From: Inonotus obliquus
Lineage: Eukaryota; Basidiomycota; Agaricomycetes; Hymenochaetales; Hymenochaetaceae
NCBI GenBank assembly: GCA_032164295.1
Contig: JAJHTX010000005.1
Span: 1,922,001 to 1,986,000, forward strand
Direction: 5' to 3'
Length of the DNA stretch: 64,000 bases
Of this stretch, positions 8,518 through 48,065 are shown piece by piece. Under the pieces are notes generated by a model. That model saw nothing but the letters and a program-made list of their open reading frames with translations. It was not told where the DNA came from and did not search any database. The translations under genes and the position numbers were made by a program. How positions within the stretch are numbered: the first letter of the stretch is position 1; each line of letters opens with the position of its first letter.

Positions 8518-10246
8518 TTAGGAGGTTCCACCAGTTGTTCCGCCTAGAACAGTGCCAGAATCCTTTACGAGCTTTTCCTGCACGCTCTTGAGCATCGTCC
8601 TGCGCTCGCCGAGGGTAACTTTGTGTTGTGCAACCTTATCGTGAAGAGTCGCGTAGAGTGTGAGCTTGGTACTGTCATATTTATGAGCACATGCTTGCAA
8701 GGAAGCAATAATCAGGAGGAGATCTGTATGCAACGTACGTCATATGCTGCTTGACCTGCGAAAATGTCAGTGGATAGTAAAGACTTGATGAACGATACTC
8801 ACAAAATCAACAAGCTTGCTAAACTTTCCCGAGATCTCTATAAAATCGATTCATATAAACGCATGAAAACATTCCTTCGTCACAAACCTTCTGCACCAGC
8901 CTTCCATTCTTCCATTGTGCAGCTGGTCCAACGTTTCTTGGCGGCTTCGTACTGTTCAATGTGTTCCGCTAGATACTGATCTAGTTCAATCCCGAGGAGG
9001 CGATAAAGTGCCTGATTTTCCTCGCCAAACCGCGCTGCATTTTGAACGTATGTATTTGGTTGCGAGTGAGGTCCAGGCTCAGTATGATGAGAGTTGAAAG
9101 GATCAATCTGGATATTGGGAGTCTGATAACGGCGCGTGGGAGTCGAGCTTCTGGATGGACGAGCCGGATGCTCGTAGGTCAAGTCGTCATGTTGTTCGAT
9201 CACCAGCTATTTCCGTCAATTCGTACCAGAGTGATATCCAAGAAGCCACACACCTCCTTTGAGTGCATGTCAAGCTTAGTACGTTTCCCTTCTCTATTCA
9301 ATACACAATCGTCAGAATCATGTTGACCAATGCGTTTTGTGGCGCGACGAAGCACACGTTGATCGTGCTTATGAGATACGGCCTCCGTATCTTCTTCATC
9401 ACCATTATCTACATTTATGGGAGCCTGATAGTCGTAGGATCGATTTTCTCTGAAGAACTGATGAGGTGAGGGCGGAGACAGAGAATTGAATGTATGCGCC
9501 TCTTCTGCCTGTTCTTCATTGGTGTTTCTCATGGGAAAGACCTCACGCCTTGCAGGTTCCAGAGGTTCGCCGTATGATGTACGTGATGTAGGAGGAGAAA
9601 ACCCGTTCATGAGGGATTGGTCGGGCGCAGCAAAAACGTTTCCAGATAAAGCAACTGGGGCGCGGATATGCCTCGCGCCACTGGGCGACAAGTGGGCGGC
9701 TGAAAGGTGTTGAAGACGCGTTGACTGCTTCTGAACAGAAAGCGACGGCGTAGACTGATCATCTAATAGAAGAGGTGCATTTGAAGAATTGAACAAGTGG
9801 GGCTTTGTAGAGCCAGAGTTTTGCAATCGACGAGGAGACATAGGAAGAGGCCTCGGCGAGCGAATGCGGGATAAAGGCTCGTTTTCTTTGAGTCTATCCA
9901 CCATTGAATTCTTGTCTCTCTTGTTCTGAGAGTCGGTAGCCTTCTTTGGTTTTGCGCGAGTAAGAGAGCTTATATTGAGAGGCTTATCAATGCCTGACAT
10001 GGCGGAAGCTGGTGGTTGCATCGCAGCAGTAGTTGGCACACCACATCCATTTTCGTTCTTGTTGTTGTGGGTTTTGCTTCTCACGGACTTGCGTTCTGGA
10101 CGCGGGGAGTTTGATGCATCTTTGAGAGCAACAGGTTCTTGTCTATCAGTTGTTGACTGGATACCTGATTCGGTGGCACCAGCATCAGTGGACTTAGATG
10201 GAGTCGACTTTGCGGTAGCAGAGAAGAATTGCTGACGTGCACTCAT
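8518..10246 (-). CDS. Candidate Ecm11-like C-terminal domain protein
   Basis: Exons 9254-10246, 8888-9206, 8803-8837, 8739-8755 (a 17-nt microexon) and 8518-8671 give 505 residues; all introns are GT-AG and 47-67 bp. The first ~330 residues are Ser/Pro/Lys-rich and probably disordered. The last ~120 form a helical segment with an early MEEWKAG motif, then KFSKLVDFVKQHM, then KLTLYATLHDKVAQHK and a terminal helix with ERRTMLKSVQEKL. This layout (disordered protein ending in a W-x2-AG helical module) resembles the Ecm11 C-terminal family, whose founding member is a meiotic synaptonemal-complex component in yeast. That assignment is a resemblance from memory only. A longer in-frame start at 10312 is TTG, so 10246 (ATG) is preferred. 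Confidence 0.6.
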
Positions 10247-25223: not shown

Positions 25224-25263
25224 TTGACACTGCACGCACCCTCGATCTACGCTCAACATCTTT

Positions 25264-27990
25264 ATGTCTACTGGCTCAACGTCGAACGTCCCTGTAACAC
25301 GCTCTCGAGCATCTGCTGCCGTTAACCCTACTCCACCGACGACTCAAGTCATCGTACCTGCTACTCCTCAACCACCGCCACCATCTCCCTCTAACGCATC
25401 ATCTTCATCTTCATCTAACACATCTACCCCTCCACCAACGAACCCAATGGCAACGTATACGCCAGTCTTTGTTGTTACGAACATAGACAATAGCGATGTT
25501 AACTGCACTTTCGATAAACTCGAAAAGTTGTCGGGCATTGCAAACTACCAAACGTGGAAATTTAGGATTATATCTGGGCTTGCGGCCCTAGGCTTATCCG
25601 ATCATCTGAAGTACGAACCAGACCCAAACGATGCTGAAGAATATCGAATGAATATGTGCATTTATCATGCCATAATAAGTTCAATTCCAAATCATTTACT
25701 TGGAAACTTGCTAACGAAGCAGACGGTCAAAACTATTTGGTCAGCTTTAGCTGATAGATACGATATTCAAACAACGGTTACCGACTCTGCTGACATCTCG
25801 AAACTATTTACGATACGCGGACACGTTACGGAATTTGACAAAACACTCGATAAAGTTCAAGAAAGTTACGCTCAACTCTGCGCACATGGTCATCAACCGG
25901 ACGATAAAACGTACATCAGCGCTATTAACCTCGCAATGCCACCGCCTTACAAACGAATTGCGCTTATGCTTGAAGACCAAATCAAGTATTTTAACGATAC
26001 AATAGCTCAAAACCCCGCGCAACACAAAACATTATCACCTGAAACACTCATTGTGCAACTACGAGCGGCTTTCGCATCCTGGAAGTCGCAATACAAGCCT
26101 TATCACCCCTCTCCCGGACGAGGCAGAGGATACGTTAACAGAGGCAGAGGAACCCCTTACGAACGAGGACGCGGACGTGGATATAAAGGATCAAACTTTA
26201 ACCCGCGTCACACTCCCTATCAAAACCACGATCACTCAAACGCTGCACAGCAAAAAGACATGACGAAGGTCAAGTGCTTTAATTGTAACAGGTTCGGTCA
26301 CTACTCGAAGGACTGCCGATTCCCCCCAACCGACGCTACAAAAAATGCACGCACAAAACGAATCGAAAGCGGAAAGTTGACGTTTAACTCGCCTCAAGAA
26401 GTTATTAATTTTGTAAATCAACAAAACGAAAACAAGAAACAGAAACAACCAATTCCCTCGACATCTACTGCTCGTATTGAAGAGGTTAACATTGCCTCAG
26501 TCGAAGAAGTTGACATTGCGATGAAGGAATACGATTTCAGTAGTTTTATTGATGAACATTATAAGGAATTGGAAAACAACATTGACGTAAGTAAAGTTTA
26601 CGCTATACTTGACTCAGGAGCATCAATCCACTCATCACCACATTTATTCTTAATGCGAAATATTAACAAAAACGCAGTTCCTATAGTAATATCAACGGCG
26701 AACGGATCTTTATTATTCACGAATACGACTGGAGACTTATTTATTCCAATACTGAAAAATGAAAATACAAAAACAGTAAGCATTATACGACTTCAAAATG
26801 TTTACTATCACCCACAATTAACTTTTACGCTAGTCTCTCAATCTCAATTATGTAAATGTGGATATATATGTATCTTTGAAAATGAACATTGTACTATTTA
26901 TGATTCAAAAAATCGATACTGCGGAAAAATTAAGAAAAATCAAACAAACTTATATCCGATACGAATGCAAATTATTAGAACTCCTGAGAAACAACAAATA
27001 AATTCAATCACGTTAGAAGAATTACATAAAAAACTCGGACATGTAAGCTACGATTACATAAGAAAATTATTACATGACTCACCAGATATTATCAACACAC
27101 GTGTTATTGACAATAAAGAAAAACAATGCGAAGATTGTTTAAAGGCGAACATAAAAAGATCAATAATACCAAAAATAAGACAAAGTTCACTATCTGAGAA
27201 ATACGGAGATATATTACATATGGATATATGGGGACCTGCACCAGTAAAAGGATACGGAAATATTGAATATTTATTAACAATAGTAGACGACGCCACACGA
27301 TGGGCAGAAATGATAATGCTAAAACACAAATCAGACGGCTATATAAAATACGTAACTTTTACTACAAAATTATTCACGCAATACGGAATAAAAATAAAAG
27401 TATTACAAAGTGACAACGATACAGTATTTCTATCAAAAGATTTTACAAATTACTTAGAATCACAAGGAACAATACGAAGATTAACAGTACATGATACGCC
27501 ACAACAAAATGGTGTCGCAGAAAGATTACATCAAACAATACTAAATCATACGAGAGCAATGATAACTGCAAAACAAATACCAAAACATTTATGGGCATAT
27601 GTAGCCCAACACGCAGTATTCATTTACAACAGAACACCAAGGGTAGCAATAGAATATAAAACACCTTTCTTTAAACGATATAATGAAAACTTCAAAATAG
27701 ATAACTTATATGAAATAGGAAGGAAAATAATAATACGAAAAGAAAATACGAATAAATTACAAAATAAAGGAATTGAAGGAATATTTATGGGTTACGACGA
27801 GGAAACTAAAGATGGAATATTAACGTATCATGATGGAAAAATAACTACGGAACGAAATATCCAATTTATCGATTTCAAAGAATCTCAAATTGAAGGGGAG
27901 AAAAATACGAGCAGCATAAAAACAAATCAACAAAATAAAGAACAAAAAGACAACGAAGAAAATATAATTAGAAGATCAGAACGAGAATGA
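25264..27990 (+). CDS. Copia gag-protease-integrase open frame
   Basis: 908 codons from ATG to TGA. Gag has a Pro/Ser/Thr-rich N-terminus, an RG-rich segment (about residues 280-310) and a CX2CX4HX4C zinc knuckle (CFNCNRFGHYSKDC, about 337-350). The protease active site is LDSGASIHSS (about 449). The integrase opens with the HHCC zinc segment (LGHVSYDYIRKLL ... CEDCLKA). Its catalytic acids are Asp in HMDIWGP, Asp in LQSDNDTVF and Glu in NGVAERLHQ, forming D,D(35)E. The frame stops at RRSERE-TGA, but the following codons continue the same polyprotein, so this is the front part of a broken gag-pol. Confidence 0.95.
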   Translation: MSTGSTSNVPVTRSRASAAVNPTPPTTQVIVPATPQPPPPSPSNASSSSSSNTSTPPPTNPMATYTPVFVVTNIDNSDVNCTFDKLEKLSGIANYQTWKFRIISGLAALGLSDHLKYEPDPNDAEEYRMNMCIYHAIISSIPNHLLGNLLTKQTVKTIWSALADRYDIQTTVTDSADISKLFTIRGHVTEFDKTLDKVQESYAQLCAHGHQPDDKTYISAINLAMPPPYKRIALMLEDQIKYFNDTIAQNPAQHKTLSPETLIVQLRAAFASWKSQYKPYHPSPGRGRGYVNRGRGTPYERGRGRGYKGSNFNPRHTPYQNHDHSNAAQQKDMTKVKCFNCNRFGHYSKDCRFPPTDATKNARTKRIESGKLTFNSPQEVINFVNQQNENKKQKQPIPSTSTARIEEVNIASVEEVDIAMKEYDFSSFIDEHYKELENNIDVSKVYAILDSGASIHSSPHLFLMRNINKNAVPIVISTANGSLLFTNTTGDLFIPILKNENTKTVSIIRLQNVYYHPQLTFTLVSQSQLCKCGYICIFENEHCTIYDSKNRYCGKIKKNQTNLYPIRMQIIRTPEKQQINSITLEELHKKLGHVSYDYIRKLLHDSPDIINTRVIDNKEKQCEDCLKANIKRSIIPKIRQSSLSEKYGDILHMDIWGPAPVKGYGNIEYLLTIVDDATRWAEMIMLKHKSDGYIKYVTFTTKLFTQYGIKIKVLQSDNDTVFLSKDFTNYLESQGTIRRLTVHDTPQQNGVAERLHQTILNHTRAMITAKQIPKHLWAYVAQHAVFIYNRTPRVAIEYKTPFFKRYNENFKIDNLYEIGRKIIIRKENTNKLQNKGIEGIFMGYDEETKDGILTYHDGKITTERNIQFIDFKESQIEGEKNTSSIKTNQQNKEQKDNEENIIRRSERE

Positions 27991-29655
27991 AAACCTACGA
28001 AACGATCATTAGGAATAAACTTTACAAAAGACGAAGACATATCAATACATTTAACAGAATTTGCTTTTACAAATAATTACAACGACGTACCACAAACGTA
28101 TCAAGAAGCAATAAAAAGTCCAGATAAAAACAAATGGATCGAGGCAATGAACAAAGAAATACAATCACTAATAAAACATAATACATGGGAATACGCTTAT
28201 CCACCACGAAATATACAAAACATTGTTGGATGCAGATTTGTTTACGCAATAAAATACTTATCAGACGGATCAATAGACAAATACAAAGCACGATTAGTAG
28301 CACAAGGATTCAGTCAAAAAGATGGAATAGATTTTTATTCAGACGATTTATTTGCACCAGTAACAAGACTATCAACGGCACGATTACTACTAAGCTGGGC
28401 AGCAACAAACGACTACGAGATACATCAAATTGATGTAAAATCTGCATACCTATACGGAGAATTAAATTCAAACGAAGAAATATATATGAAACCACCACCT
28501 GGAAACTTACTAGGTGATATTAACCCAGGACAAGTATTACGACTAAAGAAAGCATTATACGGATTGAAACAAGCAGGAAGACGATGGTATAAGAAAATAC
28601 AAGAAATATTAGAAAAATTAGGATTAATAAGATCATACTATGATTACACTGTTTTCTTTCATAAAAAGAGAATGAACAATAAACCTGCATTAATAACGTT
28701 TATGCATGTTGATGATATTACGATCATAGGATTAGATAATATAATAATACGAGAATTTAAGAAAGAACTAGCTAAATCTGTTGAATTTACAGACGGAAAC
28801 GAAATCAACTGGTTATTAGGTGTCGAAATAAAAAGAAACAGAGAAGAAAGAACGATCACGTTACGGCAAAAATCATACATTGAAACAATTCTAAAAAGAT
28901 TCAATATAGAACCGCGAGCTTACAAAACTCCGATGACACCAGGGTTAAGATTATTATCAAACAATAATGAAGACGAAATAATAGATCAACAAAAATTCAT
29001 GAGAATGATAGGAAGTTTACGATACGCTACAGATGCAACACGACCAGACATATCATTTGTCGCTGGACAGTTAGCTAGACATTTACAAAAACCAACGATA
29101 TTACATCATCAAACGGCTATTCATGCAATTCAATACTTACATAATACAAAAGAATATTACTTAACATTAGGCGGCAAAAATGAAATAAACATCAGAGGAT
29201 TCTGCGACGCAGACGGTGCAAACACTGAAGGATACCGGTCAATAAACGGTTACGTATTTCAAATAAAAGATGCATCAATATCATGGTCAAGTAAACGACA
29301 AGAACTAGTACCATTATCAGTATACGAAGGAGAAATCCAAGCTTTAGCACACGCAACGAAAGAAGCTATTTGGATAAAACATTTTTATAACGAAGTACTT
29401 GAAGGATACGATAAAGAAATTATACTTTATAGTGACAATCAAGCAGCCATAAAGACTGTAAAAACGGAAGAAATTACTTATAACATACGAACAAAACATC
29501 TTGATAAACGAAAAGAATTTGTAAGATGTTACATTGAAAACAAAACAATTGACGTACGATACGTGCAAACTGAAAATCAACGAGCTGATATATTCACGAA
29601 AGCGCTGAACGTTAAACAAGTCAAACATCTCTCAGACTTATTAAGTCTATCATGA
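27991..29655 (+). CDS. Copia reverse transcriptase-RNase H part, separated by an in-frame stop
   Basis: Same frame as the upstream gag-pol, directly after TGA at 27988-27990; the first internal ATG is at 28147. Reverse transcriptase motifs are KARLVAQGFSQ, DVKSAYLYGEL, the LYGLKQAGRRWY stretch and the catalytic FMHVDDI (usually YVDD). RNase H follows with GFCDADGAN, EGEIQALAHATKEAIW, LYSDNQAAIK and the terminal HLDKRKEFVR and RADIFTKAL. All catalytic acidic residues are present, so only the stop disables translation as one polyprotein unless read-through occurs. Confidence 0.93.
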   Translation, partial: KPTKRSLGINFTKDEDISIHLTEFAFTNNYNDVPQTYQEAIKSPDKNKWIEAMNKEIQSLIKHNTWEYAYPPRNIQNIVGCRFVYAIKYLSDGSIDKYKARLVAQGFSQKDGIDFYSDDLFAPVTRLSTARLLLSWAATNDYEIHQIDVKSAYLYGELNSNEEIYMKPPPGNLLGDINPGQVLRLKKALYGLKQAGRRWYKKIQEILEKLGLIRSYYDYTVFFHKKRMNNKPALITFMHVDDITIIGLDNIIIREFKKELAKSVEFTDGNEINWLLGVEIKRNREERTITLRQKSYIETILKRFNIEPRAYKTPMTPGLRLLSNNNEDEIIDQQKFMRMIGSLRYATDATRPDISFVAGQLARHLQKPTILHHQTAIHAIQYLHNTKEYYLTLGGKNEINIRGFCDADGANTEGYRSINGYVFQIKDASISWSSKRQELVPLSVYEGEIQALAHATKEAIWIKHFYNEVLEGYDKEIILYSDNQAAIKTVKTEEITYNIRTKHLDKRKEFVRCYIENKTIDVRYVQTENQRADIFTKALNVKQVKHLSDLLSLS

Positions 29656-45824: not shown

Positions 45825-46057
45825 GATGGTGGTGGTCGAAGGCAAGAGAGCTGTACAATTTGAGAGCAAATCTCGGGCAAGTGGTTGCCCGAACGCGAGC
45901 CATGTGATAGACGACCAAGACCAGCGAGCGCAAGACGACGCGACTCGGCTGATTATTCGATTTAATTTCTTTTATTTATCTGTACAGACCTCCATGATGT
46001 CTGCCCATCCCAATTTCCCTCAAGGCCTTGACATCACACCCCTAATCTTGGGTATCG

Positions 46058-47107
46058 ATGGGAAAACCTCCTTCAGTGCAGAATCCCAGAGACATGCCAT
46101 ACAGCGGTTTGGTATTGCTGGAAGAATTTGGTGATTCCTCTCCCATCGCATCCGCGCTACCCTTCCAAGCTCACACGCGATTTGTGCACCCAAGGGAAGC
46201 TGCTGAGCTTATTACACGCTATTTCCGTTTGTCTGAGGCATCCGATTGGCAGCTTGACCCGCCTTGCTCGATCATTTGCAGAGAGGAAGAATGGGAACGC
46301 GGACTAGCGATTGTTGAACTAGGTTCAGGGACGGGCTATGTCGGCCTCTCTTTGGCAGAACAGCTCTTGAGACTCGGAAAAAGACAGGATCTTATCGTCC
46401 TGACCGATCTTCCTGATGCGTGCTCGTTGCTTGAAGAGATATTGCAGCGTGAAAAACATACGTGGATAACTTCATACGAATTGTCTGCGGATGCAATTCC
46501 CGTCAAGATACTACCGTTTCCGTGGGGAGATGCCGTAGGAGCTAAGCGTCTCTTCAAATTTCTGTGTGACGAAAGAAATCGTACGGGAAAATCAAGACCT
46601 TTAACTCACATCATCTGCAGCGATCTTGTGAGTCCCTCGTTTTCATCTACCGGACGAAGTTGACTAGACTAGGTATACTTTCCTCATCTGCTCGCACCCC
46701 TACTCAGAACGTTGTTACAGCTCACAGCTCCACCTTTCACCCTCCCGGAGGAAGTGCTTGAGGTTATTATTTCGTACAAGGTCCGGAGCCTTTCGAAAGA
46801 AACGACCTTCTGGTCTGCCTTTGGTCTGTGGTTCACTTTCTCTCCGGTACTTGCTCGCCATGAGATGGTCCGCGCATTCCAGGAATCCGCTATCAGCACA
46901 GATCAAGAACTTCCAGAGGTACAGGACTGGCACGTCCTCGGATCGGAAAGCTTTATTTTTGTCGGACTTAGACGCCCAGAATCGTTCGAATGGACTGTAC
47001 CTGAAAAAGACGATGATCTATTGGCAGGAATTGGCGCGCAAGGTTCAGATTTACCCAAGAACGACGATACATTTGAAACTCTGCTCATTATGCAAATGAT
47101 CGTATGA
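46058..47107 (+). CDS. SAM-dependent methyltransferase, lysine methyltransferase family 16 (METTL21-like)
   Basis: Exons 46058-46627 and 46673-47107 give 334 residues. Motif I is IVELGSGTGYVGLSLA; motif II has the acidic LTDLPDACSLLEEI. The post-II motif is HIICSDLVYFPHLLAPLL, created across the 45-bp intron. These are marks of the seven-beta-strand family that methylates lysines in translation factors and chaperones. Target unknown. Translation could also begin at 45994 in another frame if a very short intron existed, which I think unlikely. It lies 302 bp beyond the 3' end of the repeat-peptide gene, tail to tail. It could be housekeeping or could act on the neighbouring peptide. Confidence 0.8.
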
Positions 47108-47409: not shown

Positions 47410-48002
47410 CTAAATTAGGTGAAAGTGCTCACTGTCGCGAATACGGAAAGTTTCGCCCAATGGTGCCCCGGCGCTGCCCTGCCTATCTCTGGGACGAAAA
47501 GTCTCTCCCAACGGTGCACCCTGCTTATCTCTGGGACGAAACGTTTCACCCAAAGGTGCACCATCGGCTCCTGTGTTGGCAATCTGCGTCTGGGCTGGTT
47601 TACTATGGGTGCTGAATGCTTACCGTCTCGACGGAAAGTCTCTCCTAGTGGTGCACCAGCCGAACCTGCATTCGGGACCTTAATTCTGTGCTTTAAATAA
47701 GGCGCAGTCAATCGTACCTTGTCTCGAACGGCGGAAAGTTTCACCAAGTGGCGCTCCGTCGATTCCTATTACCGCTATTCAGGAACCTTGGACAGGCATT
47801 ATTAGACGCGGACACCTCACCACCTCGCAATTTAAACGTCTCTCCCAGTGGCGCGCCATCGATTGCTTTGGGGTTATCAGCACGTGACATCGACGAGTAC
47901 GGCACGGAGACGCTCACCATTGCTATCCAGTTTCTCTACCGGCCCAGGGAGGGCGAGGACGTATGCGAAGAAGACGAAGAGTACAAGGTGAAGGGCAAGC
48001 AT
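47410..48002 (-). CDS. Secreted repeat-peptide precursor, six GAPLGETF repeats
   Basis: Exons 47918-48002, 47821-47865, 47718-47765, 47624-47665 and 47410-47570 give 126 residues. Exon 1 encodes a classic signal peptide (MLALHLVLFVFFAYVLA, then LPGPVEKLDSN). Six copies of GAPLGETF follow, each preceded by short leaders such as AID, GID, GSA or GAD and followed by basic spacers: KLR, RRSRQ, RRD, RPRDKQ, RPRDRQ and RIRDSE. Exons 2-4 each carry one repeat; exon 5 carries three. All four introns are 52-55 bp, GT-AG and phase 1. The octapeptide is invariant although its codons differ at third positions and at Leu CTN/TTR, only on this strand. Basic spacers fit Kex2-type or carboxypeptidase trimming, so this is probably a precursor of small secreted or cyclised peptides. 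No family recognised. Confidence 0.85.
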
Positions 48003-48057: not shown

Positions 48058-48065
48058 CTTTTATA
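48058..48065 (-). promoter_or_regulatory. TATA box of the repeat-peptide gene
   Basis: TATAAAAG on the minus strand, 56-63 bases upstream of the ATG at 48002. A canonical TATA at this distance suits a strongly or conditionally expressed gene. Confidence 0.7.

Follow-up and report, generated by a model that had tools for sequence, protein, structure and literature searches.

The minus strand of the window, by which we mean the whole 64,000-nucleotide stretch of DNA analysed here, carries a small five-exon gene that probably encodes a secreted protein presenting the same eight-residue peptide, GAPLGETF, six times. On present evidence we consider it likely that this protein is a secreted precursor, from which kexin-like cleavage would release linear peptides of about 12 residues that likely act as extracellular signals.

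Gene architecture and selection on the repeated peptide

The gene model runs from an ATG at 48002 to a stop codon ending at 47410 and specifies 126 residues (Table 1). The six copies of GAPLGETF start at 47857, 47757, 47657, 47562, 47520 and 47469. Exons 2, 3 and 4 hold one module apiece in 45, 48 and 42 nt, all multiples of three with matching phases, while exon 5 alone holds three modules. The distances between copies 1 and 2 and between copies 2 and 3 are exactly 100 bases, and that between copies 3 and 4 is 95 bases, spacings which would fit the duplication of an exon together with its intron. The N-terminus is hydrophobic, with a mean Kyte-Doolittle value of 2.63 over residues 2-18; this hydropathy, together with similarity to the start of the homolog P0003 described below, is the basis for calling it a signal peptide. 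The initial annotation had placed on this strand a five-exon gene with the layout of a secreted repeat precursor; its coordinates prove exact, with an open frame running across the four GT-AG introns from a signal-peptide-like start through all six copies.

Table 1. Coordinates of the precursor gene and its elements in the window
Feature	Positions	Strand	Basis and remarks
TATA-box-like TATAAAAG	48058..48065	-	Starts 63 bases upstream of ATG; consensus match only
Exon 1, signal-peptide-like start and short pro-region MLALHLVLFVFFAYVLALPGPVEKLDSN	47918..48002	-	Gene model, P0003 alignment
Intron 1	47866..47917	-	52 bp, GT-AG, phase 1
Exon 2, module 1 AIDGAPLGETFKLRG	47821..47865	-	Gene model; residues AIDGAPLGETFKLRGG align with P0003
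Intron 2	47766..47820	-	55 bp, GT-AG, phase 1
Exon 3, module 2 IDGAPLGETFRRSRQ	47718..47765	-	Gene model
Intron 3	47666..47717	-	52 bp, GT-AG, phase 1
Exon 4, module 3 SAGAPLGETFRRD	47624..47665	-	Gene model
Intron 4	47571..47623	-	53 bp, GT-AG, phase 1
Exon 5, modules 4 to 6, C-terminal tail DSEHFHLI and stop	47410..47570	-	Gene model

On the plus strand, positions 46046-46660 match a Methyltransf_16-type lysine methyltransferase; a further open frame, which may be the next exon of that gene, extends to 47107 and thus ends about 300 bases away from the precursor's stop codon.

Comparison of the six 24-nt core copies shows that 9 of the 24 columns vary, namely all eight third positions and the first position of the Leu codon, with every difference being silent in the minus frame. 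In the plus-strand frames the same differences change residues, and one frame meets a stop; coding on the plus strand was hence ruled out, the variation being silent in the minus frame only. An all-silent outcome was never reached in 200,000 random-substitution simulations, which took copy 1 as the reference and gave each copy as many changes as are observed in it. In pairwise comparisons of the codons for Gly, Ala, Pro, Leu and Thr, the third position differs in 57 of 90 cases (0.63, the expectation at saturation from composition being about 0.70); at the first and second positions of the core 9 of 240 comparisons differ, all of them silent Leu changes. With 300 shuffles for each pair, the similarity of the introns gives z values of 1.9, 2.2 and 1.8 where the introns are neighbours (three pairs) and of 0.3 to 1.0 in the three other pairs; the weak likeness of neighbours may be a trace of their common origin. 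Since the cores are invariant while their silent sites approach saturation and the introns are at most weakly alike, the pattern points to old copies whose peptide has been held unchanged by selection. The same grounds rule out recent duplication or gene conversion, either of which would leave silent sites and introns alike, as the source of the identical cores. The initial annotation had described the differences as all synonymous on the minus strand and residue-changing on the plus strand, and had read in them strong selection on the peptide; the nine variable columns bear out the description, and the near-saturated third positions and the simulations bear out the reading.

The same observations bear on the possibility that the gene is decayed or unexpressed, or that the model itself is wrong. 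The window comes without annotation, and intron 2 has a second possible donor 3 bases upstream (GTGGTG), the use of which would leave one Gly fewer. However, the frame is open after four regular introns of a single phase, a TATA-like box lies upstream of the ATG, the protein cores are invariant over near-saturated silent sites, and P0003 aligns over the join of exons 1 and 2; we regard this possibility as very improbable.

Relatives and the anatomy of the module

The PLGETF motif is found in nine other predicted proteins (P0001-P0009), which together hold 20 complete modules. Four proteins among 1299 candidates were recovered by a search of a very large set of proteins, at least nine among 7991 scored by a profile search, and five among 1307 by a composite query. 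The last included P0010, which was dropped, as it looks like an unrelated bacterial protein with a single chance PLGETF; P0008 and P0009, whose E-values of 4.5 and 8.6 are weak, were retained solely for a full module each. The most informative relative is P0003 (FOMMEDRAFT_151783), an uncharacterised protein of Fomitiporia mediterranea (Hymenochaetales, Agaricomycetes), annotated at 79 residues and bearing two modules: after a similar start, it has a like first module, GPPLGQTFKLRD, and a second, GAPLGETFRAR. Its residues 1-44 align without gaps to the product of exons 1-2 (signal peptide and module 1) with 23 of 44 identical, comprising 11 of 28 over exon 1 (signal and pro-region) and 12 of 16 over the module 1 residues AIDGAPLGETFKLRGG. 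The ten identities over residues 2-28 (Met excluded) were reached by 52 of 100,000 shuffles. This ungapped alignment across the two exons therefore supports both the start and the join of exon 1 to exon 2. The other relatives are likewise short predicted proteins; P0001 and P0004 seem to have been translated through an intermodule intron, which would imply a similar module-per-exon layout. The initial annotation had suggested looking in proteomes for a signal peptide with GAPLGETF-like repeats, and had held that absence of the motif from related genomes would speak against it; the motif is present in other sequences including F. mediterranea, so such an absence does not obtain.

Within the genome itself, a search with the precursor protein returned this locus only (five matches) and no paralog. 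A degenerate DNA pattern gave seven matches, six inside the precursor gene and one at C1:1329009, which reads PFGQTF and was taken as a chance match. The corresponding search with P0003 was insensitive, returning no matches and missing the precursor locus itself. In the viral and prokaryote collections, which gave seven and eight short-pattern matches, respectively, no relative was confirmed.

The repeats of the precursor conform to a pattern, G[A/P/S]PLGETF-[K/R]-x-R, that defines the PLGETF module family, with 26 modules in 10 proteins (six here and 20 in P0001-P0009, counted with a permissive pattern, the most diverged being in P0007). Some of these modules are not independent: two are common to P0004 and P0005, and the longest contigs of P0002 and P0008 are of equal length. 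Over the 26 modules, PLGETF never varies at L, T and F, and keeps P and G in 25 and E in 24; the residue preceding P is A in 16, P in nine and S in one, and D precedes the core Gly in 16. The residue following the core F is K or R in every module, that at linker position x is of 10 kinds, and the third linker position is R in 24 of 26 modules; the remaining two belong to the present gene and carry RR. D or E follows the linker in 18 of 25 modules. From these sequences the family signature may be written as DG[A/P]PLGETF-[K/R]-x-R-[D/E].

Module starts are spaced by 15, 16, 14, 14 and 17 residues in the precursor; in the relatives the spacing is 15 in P0001 (twice), P0002 (twice), P0004 and P0005, and 16 in P0006. 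Counting by eye and taking RRSR as one linker, the spans between linkers are 12, 12, 12, 11 and 14 residues here. Five of six distinct homolog spans, also counted by eye, have 12 residues, the P0005 duplicate and two spans that lack the preceding module's linker (the first of P0004 and that of P0007) being left out of this count. A dibasic pair lies within three residues after the core in two of the six linkers here and in four of 21 homolog modules (one of the 21 truncated), and the whole precursor has just two dibasic pairs, RR at residues 55 and 71. Thus, the spacers that the initial annotation called basic are indeed basic, but they are mostly of the form [K/R]-x-R, two of the six containing RR, and are not ordinary dibasic sites.

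Proposed processing and rival readings

From the sequence we infer that the gene is expressed, that its product is secreted and cleaved, where the mature peptides begin and end and what they do, and we advance the following mechanism. The precursor would enter the secretory pathway through its signal peptide. Golgi kexin-like proteases would then cut after the R of [K/R]-x-R or RR, often directly before an acidic residue, and a carboxypeptidase would remove the basic residues from the cut peptides. This would release linear peptides ending in PLGETF, e.g., GGIDGAPLGETF, QGSAGAPLGETF and DGADGAPLGETF, with DKQGAPLGETF and DRQGSAGAPLGETF as further predicted products here and DVIDGPPLGETF, DNTDGSPLGETF and ESVDGAPLGETF as predicted 12-residue products in the relatives. 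Three of the spans in the precursor start with Q immediately following K or R, and some of the released peptides may bear an N-terminal pyroglutamate; pyroglutamated KEP products are noted in PMC9769878. The peptides would most likely signal outside the cell, either to the fungus itself or to its neighbours.

Several observations touch on the protease. Two loci in the same genome match the kexin P-domain, and three kex2 genes are reported in C. cinerea and other Agaricomycetes (PMC9769878). A study of yeast Kex2 substrates reports that cleaved sites are enriched in acidic residues at P1' and P2' and, to a moderate degree, at P4' (PMC2515848); this preference was seen at the Kex2 sites of yeasts and does not in itself indicate cutting at R-x-R. 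Given the acidic residues after the linker and the D before the core Gly, P1' and P4' would be acidic at many of the predicted cut sites. Further, Coprinopsis precursors expressed in Pichia gave products apparently cut after a single Arg (PMC9769878). Yapsin-type proteases, which are mentioned in PMC2515848, might be an alternative cutter. The Kex2-type processing raised in the initial annotation is supported as a mechanism, but the published KEP rules call for dibasic sites and the linkers here are mostly [K/R]-x-R.

Two features count against a kexin-cut precursor, namely the variable span lengths (12, 12, 12, 11 and 14) and the scarcity of dibasic linkers; a third, the conserved [K/R]-x-R beside the core, would equally be expected within a longer motif that is never cut. 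We therefore weighed an uncut secreted repeat protein, in which GAPLGETF[K/R]xR[D/E] modules remain joined and act together, e.g., as a multivalent ligand, in association with the wall or by inhibiting another protein. That the conserved unit takes in the R of the linker and often the next acidic residue, perhaps as one longer motif, and that dibasic sites are few, speaks for this reading. However, position x of the linker tolerates 10 kinds of residue over the 26 modules while the core is nearly unchanging, some relatives have one or two modules only (being short predictions and maybe incomplete), and the acidic P1' and P4' positions agree with cleaved Kex2 sites (PMC2515848). On balance, an uncut protein appears unlikely, and the cut precursor is the reading we carry forward.

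The initial annotation had also raised a dikaritin-type RiPP, that is, a modified cyclic peptide made by tailoring enzymes. Ustiloxin-type precursors do share the layout of a signal peptide with repeated cores (PMC7329392), and the genome has 13 matches to UstYa-family genes. Yet the closest UstYa/DUF3328 match, at C5:2383749, lies about 414 kb off on the same contig, while the DUF3328 genes that accompany KEPs are on average 3.09 genes away (PMC7329392). Moreover, a Pfam scan of 29 other frames in the window, of which 14 matched something and 15 nothing, found no RiPP tailoring enzyme. The matches were to Methyltransf_16, Mito_carr, MFS_1 (twice, weak and below Pfam's cut-off), a proteasomal ATPase, Med26, F_actin_cap_B, Forkhead, AA_permease_2, GFO_IDH_MocA, Gtr1_RagA, a Copia-like element, zf-MYND and G-alpha. 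We accordingly set the dikaritin option aside as very unlikely.

Some incidental features of these regions may be recorded. UstYa-family genes of this genome occur in mirror-image pairs, at C3:490884 and 494989 and at C5:2383749-2385190 and 2418562-2420005, the pairs being inverted duplicates about 1.15 kb and 2.9 kb long with about 97% identity. Both ends of the C3 UstYa stretch (L023, at about 108-438 and 9716-9901) hold, in inverted copies, open frames that encode short peptides in tandem, TNAGSVDxL in one frame and STEPALV in another; these are possibly a repeat precursor or just a tandem DNA repeat. In the window itself, the plus strand at 25228-29655 bears the frames of a Copia-like LTR retrotransposon (by Pfam for the first frame).

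Novelty and comparison with known systems

Searches of Pfam and the PDB with the precursor protein gave no match at E up to 1. The strings PLGETF, GAPLGE, PPLGETF and DGAPLG had no match in the papers searched, and wider literature searches brought up no description of this core; for the KEP surveys this covers the text, and a listing in a figure or supplementary table there is possible. Within that scope, the remark in the initial annotation that it recognised no described family with this core holds, and the relatives of the precursor suggest that it belongs to a hitherto undescribed family of peptides excised from fungal precursors. Its core is under unusually clear selection and it has relatives in at least one other named species. 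More tentatively, and with less than even confidence, we propose that this is a new family of fungal signal peptides with its own processing code, R-x-R plus an acidic residue, and with phase-matched cassettes of one peptide per exon, and that a hidden class of such precursors may exist. Were this so, cassettes could be gained, lost or skipped without a change of frame, making the number and mix of peptides tunable, and processing would perhaps fall to the several kexins reported in Agaricomycetes. The hidden class might lie in mushroom-forming fungi, because the published screens rest on dibasic sites and annotated proteins: linkers of the [K/R]-x-R type would slip past strict dibasic screens, and a gene divided among several tiny exons, as here, illustrates how a small repeat precursor can escape gene prediction. 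The family thus makes it possible to test directly whether the kexins of Agaricomycetes recognise R-x-R and whether more such precursors hide.

Among the known systems, basidiomycete lipopeptide pheromone precursors have a C-terminal CAAX box, whereas the present protein ends in DSEHFHLI. Dikaritin-type precursors (ustiloxin type) resemble it in their signal peptide and repeated cores; in contrast to them, it has no adjoining UstYa/DUF3328 gene, the nearest match being no closer than the distance given above, and its linkers are mostly non-dibasic. The yeast alpha-factor precursor offers parallels in its repeated peptide, in cutting by kexin, as predicted here, and in the acidic residue directly after the cut, its cut sites being KR-EA or KR-DA (PMC6339444). 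It differs in that the present precursor has no KR and an unrelated core, and the sequences following its linkers (GGID, QGSA, DGAD, DKQ and DRQGSA) contain no XA/XP dipeptide run for STE13.

The closest comparison is with the KEPs, with which the precursor shares a signal-peptide-like start, a short, probably secreted form, several near-identical cores and basic separators (PMC6339444, PMC7329392, PMC9769878). Agaricomycete KEP peptides are linear, some are pyroglutamated and several have a final aromatic residue (W) (PMC9769878). Unlike in KEPs, the linkers here read [K/R]-x-R, in many cases with an acidic residue next, and are dibasic in two of six; the repeats stand one per exon in exons 2 to 4; and the core is unmatched in the text of PMC6339444, PMC7329392 and PMC9769878, their figures and supplementary tables apart. 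Under the published rule, a KEP has three or more repeats, each of 8 residues or longer, set between KR, KK, RK or RR sites (PMC7329392). The present protein has the signal peptide, as judged by its hydropathy of 2.63 and its likeness to the start of P0003, and six tandem copies of eight residues, but with two RR as its only dibasic sites it falls short of this rule. A looser screen, based on two or more sites and three similar fragments (PMC9769878), might catch it. Thus, by analogy, the precursor most likely works like a KEP, yet is none by the strict definition.
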